From an uncultured Bacteroidota bacterium (GTDB lineage Bacteria > Bacteroidota > Bacteroidia > Flavobacteriales > Flavobacteriaceae): DNA of 41,035 nucleotides. The stretch spans positions 1 to 41,035 of the forward strand of contig CAKZOC010000162.1 of assembly GCA_937136025.1 (NCBI GenBank). Reading direction: 5' to 3'. Every line of letters starts with the position of its first letter. Position 1 is the first letter of the stretch. Position numbers and translations under genes: made by a program. Shown piece after piece: positions 22,795 through 34,736 of this stretch. The notes under the pieces were generated by a model that did no database searches, had not been told where the DNA came from, and saw nothing but the letters and a program-made list of their open reading frames with translations.

Positions 22795-24096
22795 TTATAC
22801 CCCCGTTGTATTCAAAGGGGGTTTTGCCGTTGCCCGGAACAAAAAGAAGGCGGCCACAGCGGGCAGCACCCACCCCAACTGATACGACTGCAAAGGCCAC
22901 CAGCTTTCCAGTGCCTGGCTCAGCTGCGGCCATCCAATGCTCCCCAAAAAGTCGGGGATTGTAAAAAAAAGGGTAGTGAAAACCACAGCCCTGAAAACCC
23001 TTGGTGTCGTCCAGTCCGGGGGTAGGGCATTCAGGAGAATGAGCACAATGGTAAGGGGATAGATAAACATCAGGGCCGGCAGGGCCACAGCAATGATATA
23101 GTCAACGGGGAATTGCCCCATAAGCACCCCCAGGACGCAACAGACCAGGGCGGTAACCCGGTACACAAATTTAGAATTGCCAAATCGGGATTGTACAAAG
23201 TCTGCCGTGCCCGTAACAATCCCCACCGCGGTGGTAAAACAGGCCAGCGCAATGAGGAGACTCAGGAATAAGTTCCCGTTATATCCGAGAGCGCGCGCAC
23301 TCATTTGGCGCAGGACTTCCGTTCGGCTCAACCCATCATTCAGCGCATCTCCCATGAGGGCGCCTGAGAGAATTAAACCGGCATAAAGCACCAATAAACC
23401 CAAACCCGCCAGCCATCCTGCCCGGGAGATATAGTGAAATCGCTGTGTGGTATCAATATCTGGCATTTCCCTTTTGAGGGATATCAGGATCACGCCCCCA
23501 ACTACCACGGCGCCAATCGCATCAAAGGTCTGATACCCCTCCAGTAATCCTTCAGAAAAAGGGTTGTCGAGAAGTGTTGGAGCAGTAATGCCTTCCCCGG
23601 TCAGGGTGATGCTTCCGATCAGGATTATCAGGACAATGAGGATTGCCGGGGTCAGCCATTTCCCAATCAGCGGAACGATGCGGGAACGGTTTAAGACCAA
23701 GAAAAAAACAAGGGAAAAATAGACCAGACTCGTCAGGAGTGCGGGACTATCAAAAAAAGGAGCGATCCCCATCTCGTGGGTTACCGAAGCGGTACGCGGT
23801 GCGGGCAGGGCAATAGAAATGGCATATACGATATAGCAGTACCCCAGGCTAAACCCCTTAGACACTTTTCGGGAAAAATCAAACATGTCGCCCTGCAGGC
23901 GGGCATGGGCAAGAATCCCCAACATGGGTATCACCACGGCCGAAACGCTAAACCCGATTCCCGTCTGCCACCAGGAAACCCCGGAGCGCATGCCCAATTG
24001 AGGGGGCAGAATAAGGTTCCCCGCCCCAAAAAACAAAGAGAATAAAGCAAGGGCCAGTATCCATTCTGATTTTATTTTGATCCCCGGGGTCGCCAA
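22795..24096 (-). CDS. brnQ: Branched-chain amino acid transport system II carrier (BrnQ)
   Basis: A 433-residue sodium-coupled branched-chain amino acid transporter with about twelve transmembrane helices. The N-terminus LALALFSLFFGAGNLILPPQLG is the family signature. The start appears to be TTG at 24096, as no ATG precedes the first helix in frame. Other conserved parts are EGYQTFDAIGAVVVGGVIL and the C-terminal helix pair. It is a single transcription unit oriented away from the zinc-ribbon gene. Confidence 0.92.
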   Translation of the reverse strand: MATPGIKIKSEWILALALFSLFFGAGNLILPPQLGMRSGVSWWQTGIGFSVSAVVIPMLGILAHARLQGDMFDFSRKVSKGFSLGYCYIVYAISIALPAPRTASVTHEMGIAPFFDSPALLTSLVYFSLVFFLVLNRSRIVPLIGKWLTPAILIVLIILIGSITLTGEGITAPTLLDNPFSEGLLEGYQTFDAIGAVVVGGVILISLKREMPDIDTTQRFHYISRAGWLAGLGLLVLYAGLILSGALMGDALNDGLSRTEVLRQMSARALGYNGNLFLSLLIALACFTTAVGIVTGTADFVQSRFGNSKFVYRVTALVCCVLGVLMGQFPVDYIIAVALPALMFIYPLTIVLILLNALPPDWTTPRVFRAVVFTTLFFTIPDFLGSIGWPQLSQALESWWPLQSYQLGWVLPAVAAFFLFRATAKPPLNTTGV

Positions 24097-24337
24097 ACTC
24101 TATAGATTTATATCCGTTAAATCCTCAAGGCCAATTTACGTTTTCCTGTCGCTTTCAATGCTCTTTATCGAAAAAAGAAAGAAATTATCGGGATGATCCA
24201 ATAAAAAGAACAGACCGTTCGTTGGAGAATAGTCTGAACGCTATAATTTAAACTAAACCTATACGAAGAAACAGGTGGTTCCCAGGCCAACACCCAAGTA
24301 CCCGACGGAACCCAATCGATCCCCAAAACCTACTGCC

Positions 24338-24559
24338 ATGAAAAAACTTTTCTGCTCCCTCTTCGGACACCACTTCAGCGTTTCGAAAAAAATCACATCC
24401 CACATTAAAGAATACTCCTGTGTGCATTGCGGGAAACAGGTCACTACCGATGCCAGTGGGAATTTATCGCTCTTAACTCCAGAAATGAAAGAGATCAACG
24501 ACACCCTGGAGAATATCTACCAGAAAAGACATCGGCACAATTCACATCAATTAGCCTGA
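24338..24559 (+). CDS. Small conserved zinc-ribbon-like protein
   Basis: The ATG at 24338 gives 73 residues starting MKKLFCSLFGHHFSVSKKIT. The CVHCGKQV knuckle (about residues 28-35), together with Cys6 and nearby histidines, suggests a single zinc-binding site like DUF1660-type short proteins. The region before this ATG is Pro-rich and less protein-like, so the longer frame starting at 24275 is rejected. Its 3' end overlaps the convergent thiL gene by nine bases. Function unknown. Confidence 0.65.
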   Translation: MKKLFCSLFGHHFSVSKKITSHIKEYSCVHCGKQVTTDASGNLSLLTPEMKEINDTLENIYQKRHRHNSHQLA

Positions 24560-25612
24560 ATCCCGACTCCCAAAAGCATTCCAGCCCTGAGCCGTCAGTG
24601 GTATTGCCGAGCCTCCCCTGGTAATCAGGTTCGCTCCCGAACCCGATGCCGTCATATGCCCGATCACCGTTAAATCCGGATTCCCTTTAATTTTCGGGTA
24701 GTCCTCCTGGGCTATCGTCATGAGCAATTCATAATCTTCCCCCCCACTGAGCGCAGCCAGTGTGCTGTCTATTGAGAACTCCTCACACACCTGAATAACT
24801 GTAGGGTCCAGGGGTATTTTATCTTCAAACAAATTACATCCCACATGACTCGAGGTCGAGAGGTGGAGGATTTCAGAAGAAAGTCCGTCACTGATATCGA
24901 TCATGGAAGTGGGTCGAACCTCAAGGGCCTTTAAAAGCGCAATAATATCTTGGCGGGCTTCGGGTTTCAACTGCCGTTCCACGATATAATGATAGGGCTC
25001 CAGATCGGGCTGATGGTTGGGGTTCGCTTTAAAAACCTCCTGCTCCCGCCGGAGCACCTGCAGCCCCATATACGCAGCGCCCAGATCTCCGCTAACCACC
25101 AGAAGGTCGTTGGCCCCTGCCCCGCTGCGGTAGGTAATGTCCTCTTCAGCGTCGGTCTGACCTATAGCCGTGACGGAGAGAAGCATCCCTTTGGCAGAGG
25201 AAGTCGTGTCTCCCCCGACTACATCGACACCATAGTGTTTGGAAGCCCGCTCTATTCCGAGATACAGCTCTTCAAGCGCCTGAAGGGAAAACCGGTTTGA
25301 GACAGCCATGGAAACAGTGACCTGAGTGGGTGTCATATTCATGGCGTAGATATCACTCAAATTAACCACCAGGGCTTTATACCCCAAATGCATTAAGGGG
25401 GTAAAACCCAGGTCAAAATGAACGCCTTCTACCAACATATCGGTAGAAATAGCCACAAAATTTCCGCCTACCTCAACAATGGCCGCATCATCGCCGATGG
25501 CCTTCCTTGTAGAAGGTTGAGAAGCAGACATTTTTTGGGTGAGGTGAGCAATAAGCCCGAACTCTCCGAGATCCTCGAGTTGCGTGCGCGTGTTGTCTTT
25601 ATTTTCAAACAT
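24551..25612 (-). CDS. thiL: Thiamine-phosphate kinase
   Basis: A 353-residue ATP-dependent kinase converting thiamine monophosphate to thiamine diphosphate. Motifs include EFGLIAHL, the metal-binding IGDDAAIVE, STDMLVEGVHFDL, NLSDIYAMNMTPTQ and VDVVGGDTTSS, in the order expected for ThiL. Length matches the family. It is divergent from sufA. A -7-like box only five bases before its ATG suggests a very short or absent leader. Confidence 0.95.
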   Translation of the reverse strand: MFENKDNTRTQLEDLGEFGLIAHLTQKMSASQPSTRKAIGDDAAIVEVGGNFVAISTDMLVEGVHFDLGFTPLMHLGYKALVVNLSDIYAMNMTPTQVTVSMAVSNRFSLQALEELYLGIERASKHYGVDVVGGDTTSSAKGMLLSVTAIGQTDAEEDITYRSGAGANDLLVVSGDLGAAYMGLQVLRREQEVFKANPNHQPDLEPYHYIVERQLKPEARQDIIALLKALEVRPTSMIDISDGLSSEILHLSTSSHVGCNLFEDKIPLDPTVIQVCEEFSIDSTLAALSGGEDYELLMTIAQEDYPKIKGNPDLTVIGHMTASGSGANLITRGGSAIPLTAQGWNAFGSRDSG

Positions 25613-25616
25613 GGAC

Positions 25617-25624
25617 CAAAAATA
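25617..25624 (-). promoter_or_regulatory. Candidate -7 box for thiL with almost no leader
   Basis: On the minus strand TATTTTTG (25624-25617) matches TAnnTTTG and is separated from the thiL ATG by only four bases, implying a leaderless transcript if used. No -33 TTG is visible. Confidence 0.35.
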
Positions 25625-25885
25625 ATACCCCCGTACGGATCACGTGCTATTTCCTTCAAAAAAACAGGTCTGAATTCCGATCCGGAGGCCCTTTTTTCAG
25701 GAACAATCAAGCCCTACGGAAGGCTTGTAAAAACCCATTGGAAATCAATGGAAAAGCCCTTCGGGCGGGACTCAATGAAAATCGGGGGGCGGGGTATTTC
25801 ATCTGGATTTCTATCCATAAGTTTTTCCAATAGACCCATACGTTATAATAATGTTATGAATGCTGCAGAAATGGGACATACTTGC
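25625..25885. other. thiL-sufA divergent intergenic region
   Basis: No gene is seen. CCATTG (25735-25740) and CAATGG (25746-25751) form a perfect 6-bp inverted repeat with a 5-base spacer that could be a hairpin or an operator. I see no match to a known Fe-S regulator site such as IscR. Confidence 0.3.
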
Positions 25886-25893
25886 TATATTTG
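25886..25893 (+). promoter_or_regulatory. Promoter -7 box of the suf operon
   Basis: TATATTTG matches TAnnTTTG exactly and lies 29 bases before the sufA ATG at 25923. A CTG sits at the -33 spacing (25863-25865), a weak match to TTG. Confidence 0.5.
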
Positions 25894-25922
25894 CTTTCTA
25901 TTTAGATTTATTTCAAATAACA

Positions 25923-26252
25923 ATGATCAAGGTTTCAGAATCCGCAAAACAAAAAGTCCTTACCCTGATGCAGGAGGAAGGTTTTGACACGGTCAACGAC
26001 TATGTGCGCGTTGGAGTCAAAAGCGGTGGATGCAGTGGTTTGTCGTATGAACTCAATTTCGATCGGGAAATCGGGGAGACGGACAAAGTATTTGAAGATA
26101 ACGCCGTTCGCATTATCGTGGACAAAAAGAGTTTTCTGTATCTCGTGGGAACGACCCTGGAATATTCCGGGGGATTGAACGGAAAAGGATTTGTTTTTAA
26201 TAACCCCAATGCCGAGCGCACTTGTGGCTGCGGCGAGAGCTTTTCCCTTTAA
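25923..26252 (+). CDS. sufA: HesB/IscA family A-type Fe-S carrier (SufA)
   Basis: A 109-residue A-type carrier that receives Fe-S clusters from SufBCD and passes them to targets. The ATG at 25923 gives the normal MIKVSESAKQKV start; an upstream ATG at 25860 would overlap the promoter box. The three conserved cluster cysteines are Cys37 (SGGCSGLSY) and Cys101/Cys103 (RTCGCGESF). It is first in the suf locus, 71 bases before sufB with a hairpin in between. Confidence 0.93.
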   Translation: MIKVSESAKQKVLTLMQEEGFDTVNDYVRVGVKSGGCSGLSYELNFDREIGETDKVFEDNAVRIIVDKKSFLYLVGTTLEYSGGLNGKGFVFNNPNAERTCGCGESFSL

Positions 26253-26283
26253 CCGGAAGGTGACGGAGCCTCATATCGACTAC

Positions 26284-26305
26284 AACGCCTGCCAAAAAAG
26301 GCGTT
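26284..26305 (+). other. Hairpin between sufA and sufB
   Basis: AACGCCT (26284-26290) pairs perfectly with AGGCGTT (26299-26305) across eight bases, followed by TTTAAAG. The T run is short, so it may be a leaky terminator or an mRNA-stabilising structure setting the ratio of SufA to SufBCD. It ends 18 bases before the sufB ATG. Confidence 0.55.
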
Positions 26306-26323
26306 TAAAGTAATTTTTGAACT

Positions 26324-27769
26324 ATGGCCTATACCGAAGAAGAATTAAAGAAAGAGCTGGAAACCAAAGAGTACGAGTACGGTTTCTATACAGATATTGA
26401 ATCTGACACCTTTCCAAAAGGGCTCAATGAAGAGATTGTAATCGCCATTTCAAAAAAGAAGGAGGAACCGGAATGGATGACGGCCTGGCGTTTAGAATCC
26501 TTTCGCTACTGGAAGGAAATGATTGAACCCGAATGGGCCAATGTAAAATATACAAAACCCAATTTCCAGGACATATCGTATTACTCTGCCCCGAACAGTA
26601 AACCGAAATACGAAAGTTTGGACGAAGTAGATCCGGAGTTGCTGGATACTTTTAAGAGACTGGGTATTTCGCTGGACGAACAAAAAAAACTCGCCGGTGT
26701 AGCTGTGGATGTAGTCATGGATTCTGTTTCCGTGGCCACCACATTTAAGAAAACACTCGCAGAAAAGGGAATTATCTTTTGCTCGATTTCTGAGGCCATC
26801 AAAGAGCATCCGGAACTCGTAAAGAAATATATCGGCTCGGTAGTTCCTCAGAAAGACAACTTTTATGCCGCCCTGAATTCTGCCGTGTTTTCAGACGGTT
26901 CTTTTTGCTATATCCCGAAAGGCGTGCGTTGCCCTATGGAGCTCTCCACGTATTTCAGGATCAATCAGGCGGGTACCGGCCAGTTCGAAAGAACACTGGT
27001 CATCGCCGATAAAGGAAGTTATGTCAGCTATCTGGAAGGATGTACGGCTCCTTCCCGGGATGAAAACCAATTGCATGCGGCGGTGGTAGAGCTCATTGCC
27101 CTGGACGATGCAGAAATTAAGTATTCTACCGTTCAAAACTGGTTTCCCGGAGACAAAGAAGGTAAAGGTGGGGTATACAATTTTGTAACCAAAAGAGGGA
27201 TTTGCGAAAAAAATGCCAAAATCTCCTGGACTCAGGTCGAAACCGGTTCTGCGATAACCTGGAAATATCCTTCCTGCGTGCTTAAGGGAGATAATTCCAT
27301 CGGCGAATTCTATTCAATTGCCGTCACCAATAACTATCAGCAGGCCGATACCGGGACCAAGATGATCCACCTCGGGAAGAACACGCGCAGCACGATCATC
27401 TCCAAGGGAATTTCTGCCGGTAAATCTCAGAATAGCTACAGGGGTCTGGTACAGATTAATTCCAGAGCGGATAATGCGCGGAATTTCTCCCAGTGTGATT
27501 CCCTGCTTATGGGCAACGAGTGCGGAGCGCATACCTTCCCCTATATCGAAGCTAAAAATAAAAGCGCCCAGGTGGAACACGAGGCGACCACCAGCAAGAT
27601 TGGAGAGGATCAGATTTTCTACTGCAACCAACGGGGCATCGATACGGAAAAGGCCATCGCCCTCATCGTAAATGGGTTTAGCAAAGAGGTGTTGAACAAA
27701 CTACCTATGGAATTTGCCGTCGAAGCTCAGAAATTATTAGAAATCAGTCTGGAAGGATCTGTAGGATAA
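26324..27769 (+). CDS. sufB: Fe-S cluster assembly scaffold SufB
   Basis: A 481-residue subunit of the SufBC2D scaffold on which Fe-S clusters are built. Characteristic stretches are [59 protein letters not shown] and the C-terminal [20 protein letters not shown]. Length and cysteines are typical and the frame is intact. It is followed 10 bases later by an MBL-fold lipoprotein rather than directly by sufC, which is unusual. Confidence 0.97.
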
Positions 27770-27779
27770 AAAATCGACC

Positions 27780-28664
27780 ATGAAAGTATTCACTTATTTT
27801 TCACTTTGGGCCGTTTTGCTTACCTCCCTTTTTACCGCATGTAAAATGAATGCCGAAAAGAGTCCGGAAGTGGCCCAGATGATTGAGGAAAAACCGGAAA
27901 TTCGCCTGTATACCTTTGATGGAGGGACCGTTCAGGTCAATGCCCTGGAATTGTTTTCTCAAGATTCAGTGTACAAGGGAAAATCCAAGGAATTCGCCAA
28001 TGCCTTCTACGTCATTGAGCATCCCAAAGGCACCCTGATGTGGGATGCCGGTCTTCCCGAAGCGCTTGTTCCCATGGAAGAGCCCTACACCTCCGCTGAT
28101 GGCAATTTTACGGTATCCCGGTCAGATTCCGTTCAGAATCAGCTGGCAAAGGCAGGACTGACCCTGGAGGATATCGAATTTCTCGCCCTTTCACATACCC
28201 ACTTTGACCACAGCGGCCATGCCGCCCGAATGGGGAAATCCACCTGGCTGGTTCAGAAAGCCGAGTACGACTTCATTACAAGCCCGGAGGTCCAAAAATC
28301 CTATCCCGATGAATACAATGCCATTAAAGACATCAAAAATATACAGCAAATCGATGGAGACTACGATGTTTTCGGGGATGGGTCGGTGGTTATAAAACTA
28401 ATGCCGGGCCATACGCCCGGACATTCGGTCCTTTATCTGGACTTTAAGGAGCACGGTCCTGTTTTGTTGACGGGTGATCTCTATCACCTGTACGCCAACC
28501 GAAAAAACAAACGTGTTCCGATTTTTAACTACGATGTAAAGCAAACCCTGGAAAGCATGGATCGCTTTGAGAGTTTTGCCGAACAAACCGGGGCAGAAGT
28601 CTATCTGCAACACCAAAAAGAGGATTTTGAAAAAATGCCTAAGGCGCCTAAATTTTTAAACTAA
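27780..28664 (+). CDS. MBL-fold metallohydrolase lipoprotein (AHL-lactonase-like) inside the suf operon
   Basis: A 294-residue lipoprotein: the signal MKVFTYFSLWAVLLTSLFTA ends in a lipobox at Cys21. The metallo-beta-lactamase motif SHTHFDHSGH gives His139, His141, Asp143 and His144. Further ligands are His211 (PGHTPGHS), Asp233 (LLTGDLYH) and His278 (LQHQ), so the full set for a dinuclear metal site is present. The pattern resembles the AHL-lactonase-like branch, but the substrate is unknown. It lies 10 bases after sufB and five bases before sufC, so it is translated from the suf mRNA although an exported enzyme cannot act on the cytosolic scaffold. No composition difference from its neighbours is obvious. 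Confidence 0.92.
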   Translation: MKVFTYFSLWAVLLTSLFTACKMNAEKSPEVAQMIEEKPEIRLYTFDGGTVQVNALELFSQDSVYKGKSKEFANAFYVIEHPKGTLMWDAGLPEALVPMEEPYTSADGNFTVSRSDSVQNQLAKAGLTLEDIEFLALSHTHFDHSGHAARMGKSTWLVQKAEYDFITSPEVQKSYPDEYNAIKDIKNIQQIDGDYDVFGDGSVVIKLMPGHTPGHSVLYLDFKEHGPVLLTGDLYHLYANRKNKRVPIFNYDVKQTLESMDRFESFAEQTGAEVYLQHQKEDFEKMPKAPKFLN

Positions 28665-28669
28665 CTGCT

Positions 28670-29422
28670 ATGTTAAAAATAAAAAACCTGCACGCAGGTG
28701 TGGACAACAAGAAGATACTTAAGGGGATTGATCTGGAAGTAAATCCGGGCGAAATACACGCCATTATGGGTCCTAACGGTTCCGGAAAAAGCACGCTTGC
28801 CTCCCTTATCGCAGGAAAGGAAGATTTTGAGGTCACCCGGGGAAAAATCATTTTCGAGGGAGAAGATCTGGACGAAGTCGCACCTGAGGAGCGCGCCCAC
28901 AAGGGGATTTTCCTCTCCTTCCAATACCCGGTTGAAATTCCCGGAGTCTCTGTTACCAATTTTATCAAAACGGCCATTAATGAGACTCGGAAAGCAAAGG
29001 GATTGCCGGACATGCCGGCGAATGAAATGCTAAAACTTCTCAAGGAAAAGGCTGAAATGCTGGAGATCGATCGGAAATTTTTATCCCGGTCGCTCAATGA
29101 AGGTTTTTCCGGAGGAGAGAAAAAACGAAACGAGATTTTTCAAATGGCTATGTTGGAACCCCGTTTGGCAGTACTCGATGAAACAGATTCGGGACTGGAT
29201 ATCGATGCCTTGCGCATCGTTGCAAATGGCGTCAATAAACTGCGCAATAAAGACAATGCCGTTATCGTAATCACACACTATCAGCGCCTGCTGGATTATA
29301 TCGTGCCCGATTTCGTACATGTGATTCACGATGGAAAAATTGTGAAATCCGGAACCAAAGAGCTCGCCCTCGAACTCGAAGAAAAAGGGTACGACTGGAT
29401 CAAACAGGAAGCCGTCTTATAA
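28670..29422 (+). CDS. sufC: Fe-S cluster assembly ATPase SufC
   Basis: A 250-residue ABC-type ATPase of the SufBCD complex. Walker A GPNGSGKST is at residues 34-42, the signature FSGGEKKR at 147-153, and Walker B LAVLDETDSGLD has Asp170 and Glu171, followed by a switch His in VITHYQR. The sequence SGLDIDALRIVANG is typical of SufC. It starts five bases after the MBL-fold gene and is followed 40 bases later by sufD. Confidence 0.97.
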   Translation: MLKIKNLHAGVDNKKILKGIDLEVNPGEIHAIMGPNGSGKSTLASLIAGKEDFEVTRGKIIFEGEDLDEVAPEERAHKGIFLSFQYPVEIPGVSVTNFIKTAINETRKAKGLPDMPANEMLKLLKEKAEMLEIDRKFLSRSLNEGFSGGEKKRNEIFQMAMLEPRLAVLDETDSGLDIDALRIVANGVNKLRNKDNAVIVITHYQRLLDYIVPDFVHVIHDGKIVKSGTKELALELEEKGYDWIKQEAVL

Positions 29423-29462
29423 GGCTCCTTGTAGTCTAATCCTCCCCTTAAACATCAGGAAA

Positions 29463-30779
29463 ATGGAATTAAAAGAAAAACTTATCGCCTCTTTCATGGC
29501 CTTTGAAAATGAAGTGGACCTTGCGGATCCCGTCCATGAAATTCGCTCAGAAGCCCTGAAGAATTTTGAAGCCAAGGGATTTCCCAGCCGCAAATCAGAA
29601 GCCTGGAAATACACCTCTTTGGAGCGCCTGCAAAAGGTGGATTTCAGTTTGTTTCCTAAACAGGATAATGCTCTGGAATACAAAGATGTTAAGAAGTTTT
29701 TCCTTCACGAAATTGACACCTATAAGATCGTCTTCATCGACGGGGTGTACAGCTCATACCTCTCAGAAACGACCCACGATGGGGTTGACATCTGTCTGAT
29801 GAGTGCCGCCCTCACTAAGGAGATGTACAAACCGATCATCGATGTCTACTTTAACAAGGTGGCATCCCGGGAAGATTCGCTGGTTTCTCTCAACACGGCC
29901 TTTGCCAAAGAAGGAGCCTTTATCTACGTACCTAAGAATAAGGTGCCCAGAAAACCGGTTGAAATCCTGCATTTTTCAACAGGCAGTGAAACCGCTCAGA
30001 TGCTGCAACCCCGGAACCTGATCATCGCTGAGGAAAACGCAGAACTTCAGGTGATCGAAAGACATCAGAGCCTTACAGACAATGAAATCCTCACGAATTC
30101 TGTGACGGAGATTTTTGCAGGCAGGGATGCCATTGTGGATTACTACAAAGTACAAAACGACCGGGAATCTGCCAGTCTGATTGACAATACCTATATCGAT
30201 CAGAAAGGAAAAAGTCATGTGAGCGTGCACACCTTCTCTTTCGGCGGGAAACTCACCCGAAACAACCTGAATTTCTTTCAGGATGGAGAATATATAGATT
30301 CGACTCTTAAAGGGGTGACCCTTTTAGGGGAAAAGCAGCATGTAGATCATCATACCCTGGTACACCATCAGCAACCGAATTGCGAGAGCCATCAGGATTA
30401 TAAAGGCATTTTTGGTCAGCGCTCTACCGGAGTCTTCAACGGTAAGATAATCGTGGACAAGATTGCCCAGAAAACCAATGCTTTTCAACAGAACAACAAC
30501 CTGCTGATCAGCGATAAGGCCAGTATCAACACCAAGCCTCAACTCGAGATTTTCGCAGATGACGTGCGTTGTTCCCACGGGTGTACCATTGGCCAACTGG
30601 ACAAAGAGGCGCTATTCTATCTTCAGGCCAGGGGAATTCCAAAAAAAGAGGCCTCTGCCCTGATGATGTACGCCTTTGCCAATAATGTTCTGGAAAGTGT
30701 TCGTATCAAGGAGCTGAAACAACGCATCAATAAATTAATTGCTAAAAAACTTGGAGTAAGTCTGGGGTTTGAGCTTTAA
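29463..30779 (+). CDS. sufD: Fe-S cluster assembly protein SufD
   Basis: A 438-residue partner of SufB in the SufBC2D scaffold. The N-terminal SRKSEAWKYTSLERL and the C-terminal ADDVRCSHGCTIGQLDKEALFYLQ are diagnostic; the CSHG motif carries the conserved histidine implicated in iron acquisition. The frame is intact and of normal length. A 355-bp interval with a beta-barrel-like remnant separates it from sufS. Confidence 0.96.
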   Translation: MELKEKLIASFMAFENEVDLADPVHEIRSEALKNFEAKGFPSRKSEAWKYTSLERLQKVDFSLFPKQDNALEYKDVKKFFLHEIDTYKIVFIDGVYSSYLSETTHDGVDICLMSAALTKEMYKPIIDVYFNKVASREDSLVSLNTAFAKEGAFIYVPKNKVPRKPVEILHFSTGSETAQMLQPRNLIIAEENAELQVIERHQSLTDNEILTNSVTEIFAGRDAIVDYYKVQNDRESASLIDNTYIDQKGKSHVSVHTFSFGGKLTRNNLNFFQDGEYIDSTLKGVTLLGEKQHVDHHTLVHHQQPNCESHQDYKGIFGQRSTGVFNGKIIVDKIAQKTNAFQQNNNLLISDKASINTKPQLEIFADDVRCSHGCTIGQLDKEALFYLQARGIPKKEASALMMYAFANNVLESVRIKELKQRINKLIAKKLGVSLGFEL

Positions 30780-31120
30780 GAAGACGGTTTTTTTTGCCTT
30801 CTGAGTTAAAGGCTCCCTTAGGAGAAGCGGTTCTGATCGCGGACGCATTTAGAAGTGAAATTCACCACAAACGAAAGTGCCCTGCGGACAACAACTCAGG
30901 GCCTGATTTGAATCAGGGTCTCAGCTATGACATTTTACCCCGATGGTTCCTGCAGGTTCAGTACAACCTGATATTTTCTTCGGGTGATTCTCCAGGCCGC
31001 ACCCCCGGAGTTCTGAAGGTCGGGGGCGGATACCGGTTTTAGGGACGAAGGCCTTACATTCACCTCAGTGTAATTACCCGGTTTTAGAAAAGCCTTACAA
31101 CCCTTTCTCAAAACGTTCAG
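30780..31120 (+). pseudogene. Gap between sufD and sufS with a possible beta-barrel C-terminal remnant
   Basis: A plus-strand frame is open from about 30794 to a TAG at 31040-31042, but its only start is a TTG. The last 40 residues (LSYDILPRWFLQVQYNL...) alternate aromatic and polar residues and end VGGGYRF, with a terminal Phe as in outer-membrane beta-barrel proteins. This could be the decayed 3' end of a porin-like gene. The upstream half is not convincing. Palindrome CCTGATT-TG-AATCAGG lies at 30902-30917. A chance frame cannot be excluded. Confidence 0.35.
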
Positions 31121-31128
31121 TATCTTTG
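31121..31128 (+). promoter_or_regulatory. -7 box immediately upstream of sufS
   Basis: TATCTTTG matches TAnnTTTG exactly and ends six bases before the sufS ATG at 31135. If used, transcription would begin at or next to the start codon, giving a leaderless sufS message. No clear -33 TTG is seen. Confidence 0.5.
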
Positions 31129-31134
31129 TAGATC

Positions 31135-32361
31135 ATGAAAACAGCCACATTCGACCTTGTAAAAATCCGGGAAGATTTTCCCATTTTAAACCGTCAGGTA
31201 CACGGGCAGCCCCTGGTGTATCTGGACAATGCGGCTACCTCCCAGACACCCCGTCAGGTCATAGACGTCATTGTCGACTATTATTCGCGCTACAATGCGA
31301 ATATCCACAGAGGGGTGCATACCCTGTCTCAGGAAGCGACGGACGCCTACGAAAAAGCACGCATCAAAATACAGCGTCACTTTAATGCCTTGCACAGTCA
31401 TGAAATCATTATGACTTCAGGGACCACACATGGCATCAATATGGTGGCTTCCGGCTTTACATCATTCCTGAAACCCGGAGATGAGATTTGGGTTTCCGCC
31501 ATGGAACACCATTCCAATATCGTCCCCTGGCAGATGTTGTGCGAGCGCACCGGAGCCCAACTCAGGGTAATTCCGATGAACCTTAAAGGGGACTTGGTTT
31601 TAGAATCTTTTTACGAAGGGCTTTCAGAGCGTACCCGACTGGTGTTCTGCAACCATATTTCCAACGCCCTCGGGACCATAAACCCTATTGAAGACATTAT
31701 TGAGCGCGCCCATGGCGTGGGGGCTGCGGTACTTATTGACGGAGCGCAGGCCGCGCCTCATATCAAAGCGGACATGCAGGCCCTCAACGTTGATTTTTAT
31801 ACCATATCGGCCCATAAACTATGTGGCCCAACCGGAGTGGGAGCCCTCTACGGGAAGACCGAATGGCTCGAAAAACTGCCCCCCTACGAGGGAGGAGGGG
31901 AAATGATTTCAGAGGTGACTTTTGAAAAAACCTCCTATGCAGGACTCCCCCATAAATTTGAAGCCGGCACTCCGAATATCTCCGGGGGCATTGCCTTTGG
32001 GGCGGCCCTGGATTACCTCAACGCCATTGGGATGGATGAAATTGCAGCCTATGAGACAGAATTGCTCCATTATGCAACCTCCGAATTACTGCATATCCCC
32101 GGGCTGAAGATCTATGGAGAAGGCGCGCGCAAGACTTCTGTGATTTCCTTTAACCTGGAAGGTATTCACCCGTATGACGTGGGCACCCTCCTGGATCAGA
32201 TGGGGATAGCGGTTCGCACCGGGCATCATTGTGCGCAGCCCATTATGGATTTCTATCAAATTCCGGGCACGGTTAGGGCAAGTTTTGCATTTTATAACAC
32301 CATGGCCGAAGTAGATCGACTGGTTGAAGGGGTAAAAAAAGCGGCCCGGATGCTCTCTTGA
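31135..32361 (+). CDS. sufS: Cysteine desulfurase SufS
   Basis: A 408-residue PLP-dependent group II cysteine desulfurase that supplies sulfur to SufE and SufBCD. PLP-binding Lys228 is in YTISAHKLCGPTG and the persulfide-carrying Cys366 is in RTGHHCAQP. The N-terminus FPILNRQVHGQPLVYLDNAA is standard for SufS. It lies after a 355-bp gap from sufD and has its own promoter-like box. Confidence 0.97.
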   Translation: MKTATFDLVKIREDFPILNRQVHGQPLVYLDNAATSQTPRQVIDVIVDYYSRYNANIHRGVHTLSQEATDAYEKARIKIQRHFNALHSHEIIMTSGTTHGINMVASGFTSFLKPGDEIWVSAMEHHSNIVPWQMLCERTGAQLRVIPMNLKGDLVLESFYEGLSERTRLVFCNHISNALGTINPIEDIIERAHGVGAAVLIDGAQAAPHIKADMQALNVDFYTISAHKLCGPTGVGALYGKTEWLEKLPPYEGGGEMISEVTFEKTSYAGLPHKFEAGTPNISGGIAFGAALDYLNAIGMDEIAAYETELLHYATSELLHIPGLKIYGEGARKTSVISFNLEGIHPYDVGTLLDQMGIAVRTGHHCAQPIMDFYQIPGTVRASFAFYNTMAEVDRLVEGVKKAARMLS

Positions 32362-32391
32362 ACGATTCCCCGGGAGAGATCTCTGTATCTC

Positions 32392-32423
32392 TTTGAAAAT
32401 GGGCCGTTCATGTTGTAATTTTG
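32392..32423 (+). promoter_or_regulatory. Promoter of sufE-sufT-DUF2480
   Basis: TTTG (32392-32395) and TAATTTTG (32416-32423) are separated by 20 bases, matching the Bacteroidota -33/-7 promoter at both boxes. Transcription would begin shortly before the sufE ATG at 32439. Confidence 0.65.
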
Positions 32424-32438
32424 ACAAAAATTTTATCC

Positions 32439-32864
32439 ATGCAGATCGAAGCGATACAGGAAGAAATTGTCGATGAGTTTTCCATGTTTGAAGATTGGAT
32501 GCAGCGGTATGAATATATGATTGAACTCGGTAAATCCCTCCCCAGGATTTCCGATGAGTTCAAGACCGATGAGCACCTGATCAAAGGTTGCCAGAGTAAA
32601 GTTTGGGTACACGCTGCTATGGAGGACGGTAAAGTAGTCTTTACCGCAGACAGTGATGCTATTATTACTAAGGGTATTATCGGAATCCTGATTCGGGCAT
32701 TCAGCAATCAAAGCCCCGCAGACATTTTGGAAGCAAAAACAGATTTCATAGACAAAATTGGGTTGAAAGATCATCTTTCACCCACCCGGGCCAACGGACT
32801 GGTAAGTATGATCAAACAGCTGAAGCTCTACGCTCTCGCATACCAAACGCAACTCAACACCTGA
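32439..32864 (+). CDS. sufE: Sulfur transfer protein SufE
   Basis: A 141-residue SufE-type sulfur acceptor. The ATG at 32439 is preferred over a TTG at 32421 that lies inside the promoter. The active Cys51 is in EHLIKGCQSKVW, the family signature. It accepts persulfide sulfur from SufS and delivers it to SufB. It is followed 25 bases later by sufT. Confidence 0.95.
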   Translation: MQIEAIQEEIVDEFSMFEDWMQRYEYMIELGKSLPRISDEFKTDEHLIKGCQSKVWVHAAMEDGKVVFTADSDAIITKGIIGILIRAFSNQSPADILEAKTDFIDKIGLKDHLSPTRANGLVSMIKQLKLYALAYQTQLNT

Positions 32865-32889
32865 GAGGCCCAAACTTTAAGAGAAAACC

Positions 32890-33219
32890 ATGGAAACAGA
32901 CACCACAATAGACACCCAGGAACTCGGCGAAAAAATCGTCAGGGTACTAAAGACCATCTACGATCCGGAAATTCCTGTGGATATTTATGAACTGGGGCTG
33001 AAGTACGACGTTTTTGTGAATGAAGACCTCGAGGTTCGTATCCTGATGACACTGACTTCGCCCAACTGTCCGGTAGCAGAAACGCTTCCGGTTGAGGTCG
33101 AGGAAAAAGTCAAGTCCCTGGATGCCGTAAAAGATGCAGAAGTTGAAATCACTTTTGACCCCCCCTGGACCCAGGAATTAATGAGCGAAGAGGCCAAACT
33201 CGAACTCGGCATGCTCTGA
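32890..33219 (+). CDS. sufT: SUF system protein SufT (DUF59/MIP18 family)
   Basis: A 109-residue DUF59-domain protein, the SufT type associated with Fe-S cluster maturation. The motif YDPEIPVDIYELGL is near residues 24-37 and the conserved Cys60 is in LTSPNCPVAETLP. It lies between sufE and the DUF2480 gene, consistent with a role in cluster transfer. Confidence 0.94.
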   Translation: METDTTIDTQELGEKIVRVLKTIYDPEIPVDIYELGLKYDVFVNEDLEVRILMTLTSPNCPVAETLPVEVEEKVKSLDAVKDAEVEITFDPPWTQELMSEEAKLELGML

Positions 33220-33232
33220 CACCCTATATCCA

Positions 33233-33736
33233 ATGGAGAAAGAAATCGTCAACCGCGTTGCCAAAAGCAAATTGATCACCCTCGACCTCGAGGATTTCTA
33301 TCCCAGCGGGAATCGCTTTGTAATTGACTTAAGCCAATGGCTGGAAGAAGGGCTTATTCTGCGCGAAACCCCTTTCAGAAATGCCCTCAAAGCGCACGAT
33401 TGGGAAACGTATCGCGATGGTTTTGTCGCTATAAACTGTAATTCGGAAGCCATCATACCCGCCTGGGCCTATATGCTGGTCAGCTCGTATCTCACTGAAA
33501 TTGCGAAAACGGCCGTTGTGGGATCTTTGGAGGAACTGGAAACGGTGCTCTTTAAGGACTCCCTGAGCGCCCTGGACCTCGAGGCCCTTAGAGATCGCCC
33601 GGTCATTATAAAAGGGTGCAGCAGCCTTCCAGTACCTCCGTCGGCCTATATATGGGCCTCTCAACGCGTGCAGACGGTGGCCAAATCCGTCATGTATGGT
33701 GAAGCCTGTTCTTCAGTTCCCATTTTTAAAAAATGA
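33233..33736 (+). CDS. DUF2480 family protein
   Basis: A 167-residue protein matching the Bacteroidota DUF2480 family at full length: MEKEIVNRVAKSKLITLDLE, AINCNSEAIIPAWAYML, RPVIIKGCSSLPVPPSAYIW and the C-terminal KSVMYGEACSSVP. Conserved cysteines in KGCSS and GEACSS suggest a link with Fe-S or sulfur chemistry. It is part of the sufE-sufT unit, 13 bases after sufT, but its function is not established. Confidence 0.9.
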   Translation: MEKEIVNRVAKSKLITLDLEDFYPSGNRFVIDLSQWLEEGLILRETPFRNALKAHDWETYRDGFVAINCNSEAIIPAWAYMLVSSYLTEIAKTAVVGSLEELETVLFKDSLSALDLEALRDRPVIIKGCSSLPVPPSAYIWASQRVQTVAKSVMYGEACSSVPIFKK

Positions 33737-33773
33737 AATCTTTACTCTCGGGCTCAAATTCACAGGTTTACAG

Positions 33774-33781
33774 TAAATTTG
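33774..33781 (+). promoter_or_regulatory. -7 box upstream of DUF3078 gene
   Basis: TAAATTTG matches TAnnTTTG exactly, 28 bases before the ATG at 33810. The DUF3078 gene may therefore be transcribed separately from the suf genes. Confidence 0.45.
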
Positions 33782-33809
33782 CCCCTGATAAATTAAATTC
33801 AACGCTCAG

Positions 33810-34736
33810 ATGAAACGAATTCTCCTTGTAATCACGGTTCTGTTTGCCGGTCTCACATCCTACGGTCAGACGCTGGAAGAGCTTAAAGCCGCTAAAAAGC
33901 AAAAAGAAGACTCTGTCAGTGCTATTAACGGTCGAATCGGAGATTTGAAATCTCAAATCGATGCCTTCCCGGGATGGAAGTTCGGGGCCTTTGGTACCAT
34001 TGGAGCCAGTCTTTCAGGTTTCAACAATTGGTATGCGCAGGAGACTCCAAACAACTCCACCGGACGTATTGGGATCACTGTAAACCCCTATGCCAAATTG
34101 GACCGGGAGAAATACTTCTGGTACAATAATGCACAACTCAATATTGGGTGGGTCAAATTCGACGATAAGGACGATCCGGATGACCAGGATGGCTTTCGGC
34201 AGTCCAATGATGTATTTAATATTACCTCCCTTTTCGGGTACAACCTGACAAGTAAGTTAGCCGCTTCCACTTTAATGGAATACCGATCGACAATACTCAG
34301 TAATTTTAATGATCCCGGCTATCTCGATTTGGGTGTGGGAATCACCTGGAAGCCGATAGATGGCCTGATCATCGTTGCGCACCCTGCCAACTATAACTTC
34401 GTGTTCAGCAACGACAATACTATTTTCGATTCTTCCTTCGGGGCAAAGTTGTTGGCGAATTACAGCAAATCCATTGGAAAATTTAATTGGAAATCCCAGT
34501 TCTCAGCTTTTGCGAGTTATAAAGACAGCAACCTCTCCAACTGGACCTGGACCAATAATTTCGGCTACAAGGTCTGGAAGGATATCGGCCTCGGGTTTGA
34601 GTTCGGGCTTCGCGACAATAAACAGGAAGCCCTGAATTATGAGATCAATACCCTGGGCAATGCAGGGGCTACTTTTGACAATATAGATAACGACCTGCAG
34701 AGCTATTGGCTTTTTGGCCTTACCTATGACTTCTAA
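33810..34736 (+). CDS. DUF3078 family outer-membrane beta-barrel-like protein
   Basis: A 308-residue secreted protein. A signal peptide (MKRILLVITVLFAGLTSYG) is followed by a short coiled coil (LEELKAAKKQKEDSV) and then long amphipathic beta strands, ending in LFGLTYDF with a terminal Phe. This is the layout of DUF3078 outer-membrane barrels in flavobacteria. The function is unknown. It lies directly after the suf locus, 73 bases from DUF2480. Confidence 0.88.
   Translation: MKRILLVITVLFAGLTSYGQTLEELKAAKKQKEDSVSAINGRIGDLKSQIDAFPGWKFGAFGTIGASLSGFNNWYAQETPNNSTGRIGITVNPYAKLDREKYFWYNNAQLNIGWVKFDDKDDPDDQDGFRQSNDVFNITSLFGYNLTSKLAASTLMEYRSTILSNFNDPGYLDLGVGITWKPIDGLIIVAHPANYNFVFSNDNTIFDSSFGAKLLANYSKSIGKFNWKSQFSAFASYKDSNLSNWTWTNNFGYKVWKDIGLGFEFGLRDNKQEALNYEINTLGNAGATFDNIDNDLQSYWLFGLTYDF

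Follow-up and report, generated by a model that had tools for sequence, protein, structure and literature searches.

The closest described system to the locus analysed here is that of Muricauda olearia Th120, in which momL, a gene for an AHL lactonase, lies between sufB and sufC (PMC5484670). In the presence of indole, iron chelation raised the suf genes and momL of this bacterium six- to seven-fold and peroxide raised them three- to four-fold; without indole, sufA, sufD, orf10 and orfF were up about two-fold under iron chelation, and momL is not named in that group (PMC5484670). Co-transcription of momL with suf was deduced by the authors from similar transcript levels in qPCR, and MomL activity was measured in the culture supernatant, where it was higher under iron shortage. 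The authors, who worked without a momL knockout, described the arrangement as not yet reported elsewhere (PMC5484670), and in our literature search their study is the sole report found that links momL, or any MBL gene, to sufB. For FiaL and MzmL, the passages of the literature considered here describe demonstrated AHL lactonase activity; they also give a broad AHL range for MomL, FiaL and MzmL, and name a FiaL homologue in Aquimarina muelleri.

The core of the present finding, a gene for an AHL lactonase in the sufB-sufC gap, is already published for M. olearia. What is added here is that the order sufB-MBL-sufC is a conserved trait of the family Flavobacteriaceae, within a wider pattern of envelope proteins encoded in suf operons. 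We read the gene as encoding an exported MomL-type AHL lactonase that would be made together with the suf proteins under stress and would quench the signals of competitors, and we give this reading as a whole a probability of about 0.75.

Results

Organization of the suf locus

The window, that is, the whole stretch of 41,035 nucleotides analysed, from an uncultured member of the Flavobacteriaceae, contains the MBL gene surrounded by a complete SUF set that is followed by a DUF2480 gene, according to the family matches of its ORFs. The features are as follows:

25860..26252, + strand, SufA/IscA-type gene; the true start may be the internal ATG at 25920
26324..27769, + strand, sufB (ORF and family match)
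27780..28664, + strand, probable MomL-like AHL lactonase lipoprotein gene, 294 aa (ORF, family matches, solved relatives and predicted model)
27831..27842, + strand, lipobox F18-T19-A20-C21; Cys kept in 52/52 distinct aligned relatives
28194..28211, + strand, HTHFDH metal motif with H139, H141, D143 and H144 (sequence and alignment of relatives)
28410..28412, + strand, H211, metal ligand position (sequence, alignment and profile alignment)
28476..28478, + strand, D233, bridging-metal ligand position, AiiA D191 (sequence, alignment and profile alignment)
28485..28487, + strand, H236, position of the AiiA catalytic Tyr194; His in 52/52 aligned relatives
28611..28613, + strand, H278, metal ligand position (sequence, alignment and profile alignment)
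28670..29422, + strand, sufC (ORF and family match)
29463..30779, + strand, sufD (ORF and family match)
31135..32361, + strand, sufS (ORF and family match)
32421..32864, + strand, sufE (ORF and family match)
32890..33219, + strand, SUF-associated DUF59/SufT-type protein (ORF and family match)
33233..33736, + strand, DUF2480 protein, closing the apparent suf operon (ORF and Pfam)

A DUF2480 gene was also seen downstream of sufT in six long loci of relatives (L043, L044, L047, L048, L049 and L050). A preliminary description of this DNA had placed an MBL-fold lipoprotein gene 10 bases after sufB and five before sufC, in agreement with the end of sufB at 27769 and the start of sufC at 28670, and the seven metal ligands that it had named (H139, H141, D143, H144, H211, D233 and H278) stand exactly where it put them. 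The sole cysteine of the 294-residue protein is C21, within F-T-A-C. An Rfam scan of positions 24000-34000 gave no match. Around the MBL gene, promoter-like sites numbered 3 against 5.4 expected, in a scan whose models do not include flavobacterial promoters and from which no internal promoter can be claimed; terminator-like sites numbered 12 against 5.6 expected, the majority of them within genes. The search of the window's genome for the LuxI family gave no match, a result that carries no weight, since the control genomes gave none either.

Conservation of the locus across the family

A search of 397 genomes of the family, with a threshold of E 1e-10, gave 45 genomes with a match to the MBL lipoprotein. 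One of these (G251) was weak (29%) and was set aside, and the other 44 span 33 genera. In 42 of these 44, sufB precedes the gene and sufC follows it; the exceptions are G362, where sufB is upstream and the contig then ends, and G028, where the MBL gene is elsewhere. The nearest named relative, Robiginitalea aurantiaca M39, has the same gene order and a protein of 84% identity. The gene is not an invariable member of the suf operon, since strong homologues occur in 44/397 genomes versus 389/397 for SufC, and it is rare outside the family: two of 196 genomes matched at 1e-25 in the order sample (the own genome and G189), both from this family, and two of 198 in the class sample (the own genome and G738, at 1e-20, with 40% identity). 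The G738 gene, from another order (L100, 1447-2262), encodes a lipoprotein lactonase with no suf neighbour within its 3.75 kb, and its protein keeps the D-x-F-H motif, i.e., a His at the position of AiiA Tyr194.

Within the genus, the MBL gene was present in 8 of the 10 genomes searched. The two others, G001 and G008, gave no MBL match and have sufB-sufC spacings of 30 and 26 bases; in the one SufB-SufC-SufD tree built, in which some nodes in other parts are weak (42 to 60), they are placed apart from each other, each amid species that carry the gene (supports 96 and 100), a pattern suggestive of two losses.

The gene looks to be under purifying selection, as dN/dS against R. aurantiaca is about 0.06, a rough value because dS is 1.62. 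Identity with the same species is 84.4% for the MBL protein, 96.5% for SufB and 96.4% for SufC. Over 48 loci, the MBL distances follow those of SufC (rho 0.53, permutation p 0.001); since the correlation between SufB and SufC is itself low (rho 0.27), this is no strong test of co-inheritance. The preliminary description had proposed a survey of how widely the gene is kept and had held a neutral insertion as an alternative; the survey shows that it is not a gene of one strain, and conservation over 33 genera disfavours the neutral alternative. Specifically, a neutral insertion in one strain was rejected on the finding of sufB-MBL-sufC in nearly all of the family genomes with a strong homologue.

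Other occupants of the suf junctions

In relatives, the sufB-sufC gap often contains a further lipoprotein (about 120-140 aa) that is unrelated to the MBL protein and is encoded there by itself or on either side of the MBL gene. Three of five of these proteins scanned matched the NlpE C-terminal OB domain (PF17185) above its cut-off, and the best match of a structural model was E. coli NlpE (2z4i; Z 10.5, rmsd 2.5, 78 residues), with the next unrelated structure at 7.5. This NlpE-C-like lipoprotein was seen at sufB-sufC in L078, L080, L082, L085, L094, L097, L098, L099 and others. It was matched in 205/397 genomes of the family and in none of the three Robiginitalea genomes among them. Where the places of both this gene and sufC are listed, its end lies 3 to 104 bases upstream of sufC, in 62/62 genomes; the places listed cover 150 of the 389 genomes with SufC and 150 of the 205 with NlpE-C. 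The MBL and NlpE-C-like genes, found in 44 and 205 of the 397 genomes, weakly avoid each other, with both in 15 genomes (Fisher p 0.016, genomes being counted without correction for kinship). In Riemerella anatipestifer, iron restriction raised sufA, sufB, an nlpE gene and sufD, among others, according to the part of the report considered here (PMC5609570); their locus tags follow this order, from which we infer a position of nlpE between sufB and sufD in that species. Our literature search on links of suf with NlpE or with lipoproteins in flavobacteria found no description of the sufB-sufC slot.

As a control, 40 MBL-less suf operons were drawn at random from the best-scoring 60 MBL-less SufC matches listed. 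Among the matches listed, an ORF filled the A-B junction in 2 of these operons, B-C in 21, C-D in 3 and D-S in 9, and S-E in 20/36; lipobox-like ORFs were present at B-C in 17 and at S-E in 15 of 36, and at none of A-B, C-D and D-S. Of the 21 ORFs at B-C, 20 are of the NlpE-C type and all lie inside the gap, so that 20/40 of the sampled operons among the matches listed carry this lipoprotein; the alignment behind these matches (A2) has 23 rows built from sufB-sufC gap genes, 6 of them from the genomes of the 40 operons, and the matches in those genomes are therefore not independent. The remaining B-C ORF is a 23S-IVP/four-helix protein (L108, 4101-4325; Pfam). ORFs of this four-helix-bundle type were seen in L108, L117, L125, L126 and L131 at A-B, B-C or C-D, as if such genes shifted among suf junctions, with L108 as the one case checked in Pfam. 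Exported proteins were seen between sufS and sufE (L102, 8165-10104; L122, 2117-2587; L130, 8460-8891), the examples scanned including an M43 metalloprotease and META-domain lipoproteins, and outer-membrane beta-barrel proteins between sufD and sufS (L109, 4370-4990; L112, 4403-5086). Three of the nine D-S and S-E proteins scanned had no family match.

These occupants bear on the possibility that the sufB-sufC junction merely tolerates insertions, so that the MBL gene would be a passenger there and its link with Fe-S assembly only that of a strong promoter. The NlpE-C-like lipoproteins, and once a four-helix protein, at the same junction fit this idea, as do the absence of the MBL gene from two branches inside the genus and its faster evolution than SufB and SufC. 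A neutral hitch-hiker would be expected to decay or move, but the MBL gene is intact, under apparent purifying selection, and in place in 42 of 44 genomes, with a copy of the clade elsewhere only in G028; moreover, the junctions are not alike, since in the 40 operons, among the matches listed, ORFs with a lipobox are found at B-C and S-E and not at A-B, C-D or D-S. We therefore consider a mere passenger unlikely.

Relationship to AHL lactonases

Pfam assigns the window protein to Lactamase_B with 62.4 bits (cut-off 22.7), which gives the general MBL domain only. Its top curated families are the AHL lactonases AttM and AiiA, with 116.9 and 110.9 bits, scores under the equivalog cut-offs of 390 and 375 (NCBIfam), and 20/20 family members scanned matched both models. 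The nearest solved relatives by sequence are AhlX (7.7e-24) and AiiA (about 1e-20). A predicted model of the protein (mean pLDDT 87.7) was closest to the same enzymes, AhlX (Z 31.1, rmsd 2.4, 249 residues) and AiiA (2btn; Z 31.0, rmsd 1.9, 239 residues), followed by 4-pyridoxolactonase (Z 29.9), whereas the listed class B beta-lactamases, IMP-1 among them, reached a Z of about 16 at most. By this comparison the predicted model has the AHL-lactonase fold.

For the alignment, 60 relatives above 36% identity were reduced by 8 identical copies to 52; L012 to L017, L052 and L067, below 36%, were left out. The HXHXDH~H~D motif with its seven dinuclear-metal ligands is present in the window protein and in 52/52 relatives, as are the lipobox Cys and an N-terminal hydrophobic segment (by eye and alignment). 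The conservation of ligands and lipobox, which the preliminary description had put forward as a check, is thus complete among these distinct relatives. Its view of an exported enzyme, presumably dependent on metal and encoded by a gene that stays with suf, is upheld, but its term "periplasmic" goes too far: a lipobox predicts only a lipoprotein of the envelope, and the MomL activity of M. olearia was measured in culture supernatant. A surface export signal of lipoproteins is a motif expected after the lipobox Cys. For such a signal the 52 relatives give a mixed picture, with K at +2 after Cys21 in 50 and D or E at +3 in 33, but a net charge of +2 to +7 that is mostly 0 to +2.

A conserved position of the active site differs from that of AiiA. 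Tyr194 of AiiA is described as catalytic, and Tyr241 of MzmL as its equivalent, in the passages of PMC11112094 considered here. In profile alignments, AiiA and AhlX have a Tyr at the position of H236, where all 52 distinct relatives have His, so that the catalytic Tyr of AiiA/AttM is lacking at this place throughout and the invariant His is a marker of the clade. L053, whose signal peptide is the one printed for MzmL, has a Tyr two and a His three residues past the bridging Asp. The change of Glu238 to Gly abolished the activity of MomL, according to the portion of PMC6562636 at hand; provided that MomL D232 equals D233 here, this position is Ala239 in the window protein, and Glu stands there in 41/52 relatives.

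MomL itself was sought among the loci by its published residues, of which the best locus matches 6/11. The signal peptide of L053 is identical to the printed one of MzmL, and L053 is at sufB-sufC; the A. muelleri locus (L045) reads sufB-lipoprotein-MBL-sufC, its MBL protein being 62% identical to the window protein. Likened to MomL through published features, the window protein is most likely a MomL-type AHL lactonase. This assignment draws on AttM and AiiA as best families, on AhlX and AiiA as closest folds, on the same gene order, the lactonase activity and the joint induction in M. olearia (PMC5484670), and on the places of L053 and L045. Against it stand the clade-wide His236 for Tyr194 and Ala239 for MomL Glu238, the derivation of co-transcription in M. 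olearia from qPCR without a knockout, and the two genus members that are devoid of the gene.

The same His236, which sets the clade apart from AiiA and AhlX, would also suit another native substrate, a lactone of iron stress (for example that of a siderophore or xenosiderophore, or an AHL derivative that binds iron), with quenching as a side activity. The induction of momL with suf under iron shortage (PMC5484670), the nearness of the fold to 4-pyridoxolactonase and the broad AHL range given for MomL, FiaL and MzmL in the passages considered, which fits a permissive lactonase, are in line with this proposal. However, the closest solved relatives are AHL lactonases, siderophore genes were not seen among the ORFs listed around the suf operon, and no test of siderophore hydrolysis was found in the literature considered, so that such a substrate appears very unlikely to us. 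A class B3-like beta-lactamase or other detoxifying hydrolase is scarcely credible, as the subclass B3 models matched weakly (43.9 bits, cut-off 240; NCBIfam) in the search that gave 117 and 111 bits for the AHL lactonase models, and the structure is far nearer AHL lactonases (Z near 31) than listed beta-lactamases (16 or less); a beta-lactamase identity was rejected on these two grounds.

Discussion

Proposed role of the lactonase

With the gene order, ligands, lipobox, fold, locus conservation and purifying selection described above, the reading as a MomL-type AHL lactonase can be put as a sequence of steps. The gene product would be an AHL hydrolase of MBL fold with a dinuclear metal site, exported by Sec and anchored by a lipid at Cys21. 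By analogy with M. olearia, it would be expressed from the suf operon transcript and would rise under Fe-S stress (iron shortage, peroxide). Acting in the cell envelope or outside the cell, it may open the lactone ring of the AHL signals of competing Proteobacteria, which would be weakened when iron is scarce. Both the AHL lactonase activity and the suf-linked regulation are carried over to the window protein from M. olearia, and a benefit to the cell from the lactonase is presumed.

The preliminary description had called the pairing with suf unexpected; the conserved locus is real, and the momL-suf pairing had already been published in 2017. It had also overlooked the affiliation with AHL lactonases and the frequent second lipoprotein at sufB-sufC. 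As the report of one strain has become a family trait, the question of quorum quenching in the iron-stress response can now be studied in a large and genetically varied set of marine bacteria. An unrelated lipoprotein resembling the envelope-stress sensor NlpE occupies the same junction, which makes a link between Fe-S assembly and the envelope testable. More tentatively, and with real doubt, the SUF operon of Flavobacteriaceae could be a combined Fe-S and envelope stress unit, with slots for exported proteins at B-C, D-S and S-E, with MomL-type and NlpE-C proteins as alternative or joint occupants of B-C, and with a lactonase that serves primarily in iron-stress physiology or in competition and less in quorum quenching at large. 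If this were true, iron or oxidative stress would remodel the cell surface while clusters are rebuilt.

Comparison with known systems

In comparison with E. coli NlpE, the gap protein of the relatives is a single small lipoprotein domain encoded in the suf operon, and it is absent from the window. AiiA, AttM and AhlX have in common with the window protein the fold and all metal ligand positions; unlike it, they are not exported lipoproteins, judging from the aligned sequences. AiiA and AhlX have a Tyr at the H236 position, and the window protein scores far under the AiiA and AttM equivalog cut-offs. FiaL, Aii20J and MzmL, AHL lactonases of marine Flavobacteriaceae, are of the same MBL type as the window protein. 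In the passages considered, MzmL has a signal peptide, as the window protein appears to; it is predicted to be extracellular, with a signal peptide of 16 residues, and the Cys right after it in L053 resembles a lipobox Cys. Neither the suf neighbourhood nor a lipobox comes up in these passages on FiaL and MzmL. MomL, compared by its published description, comes closest, as an exported MBL-superfamily lactonase of 294 aa with the HXHXDH~H~D motif and a gene located between sufB and sufC; it differs in having Glu238 where the window protein has Ala at the aligned position. The report on MomL concerned a single strain, whereas here the same arrangement is found in 42/44 genomes of the family with a strong homologue.
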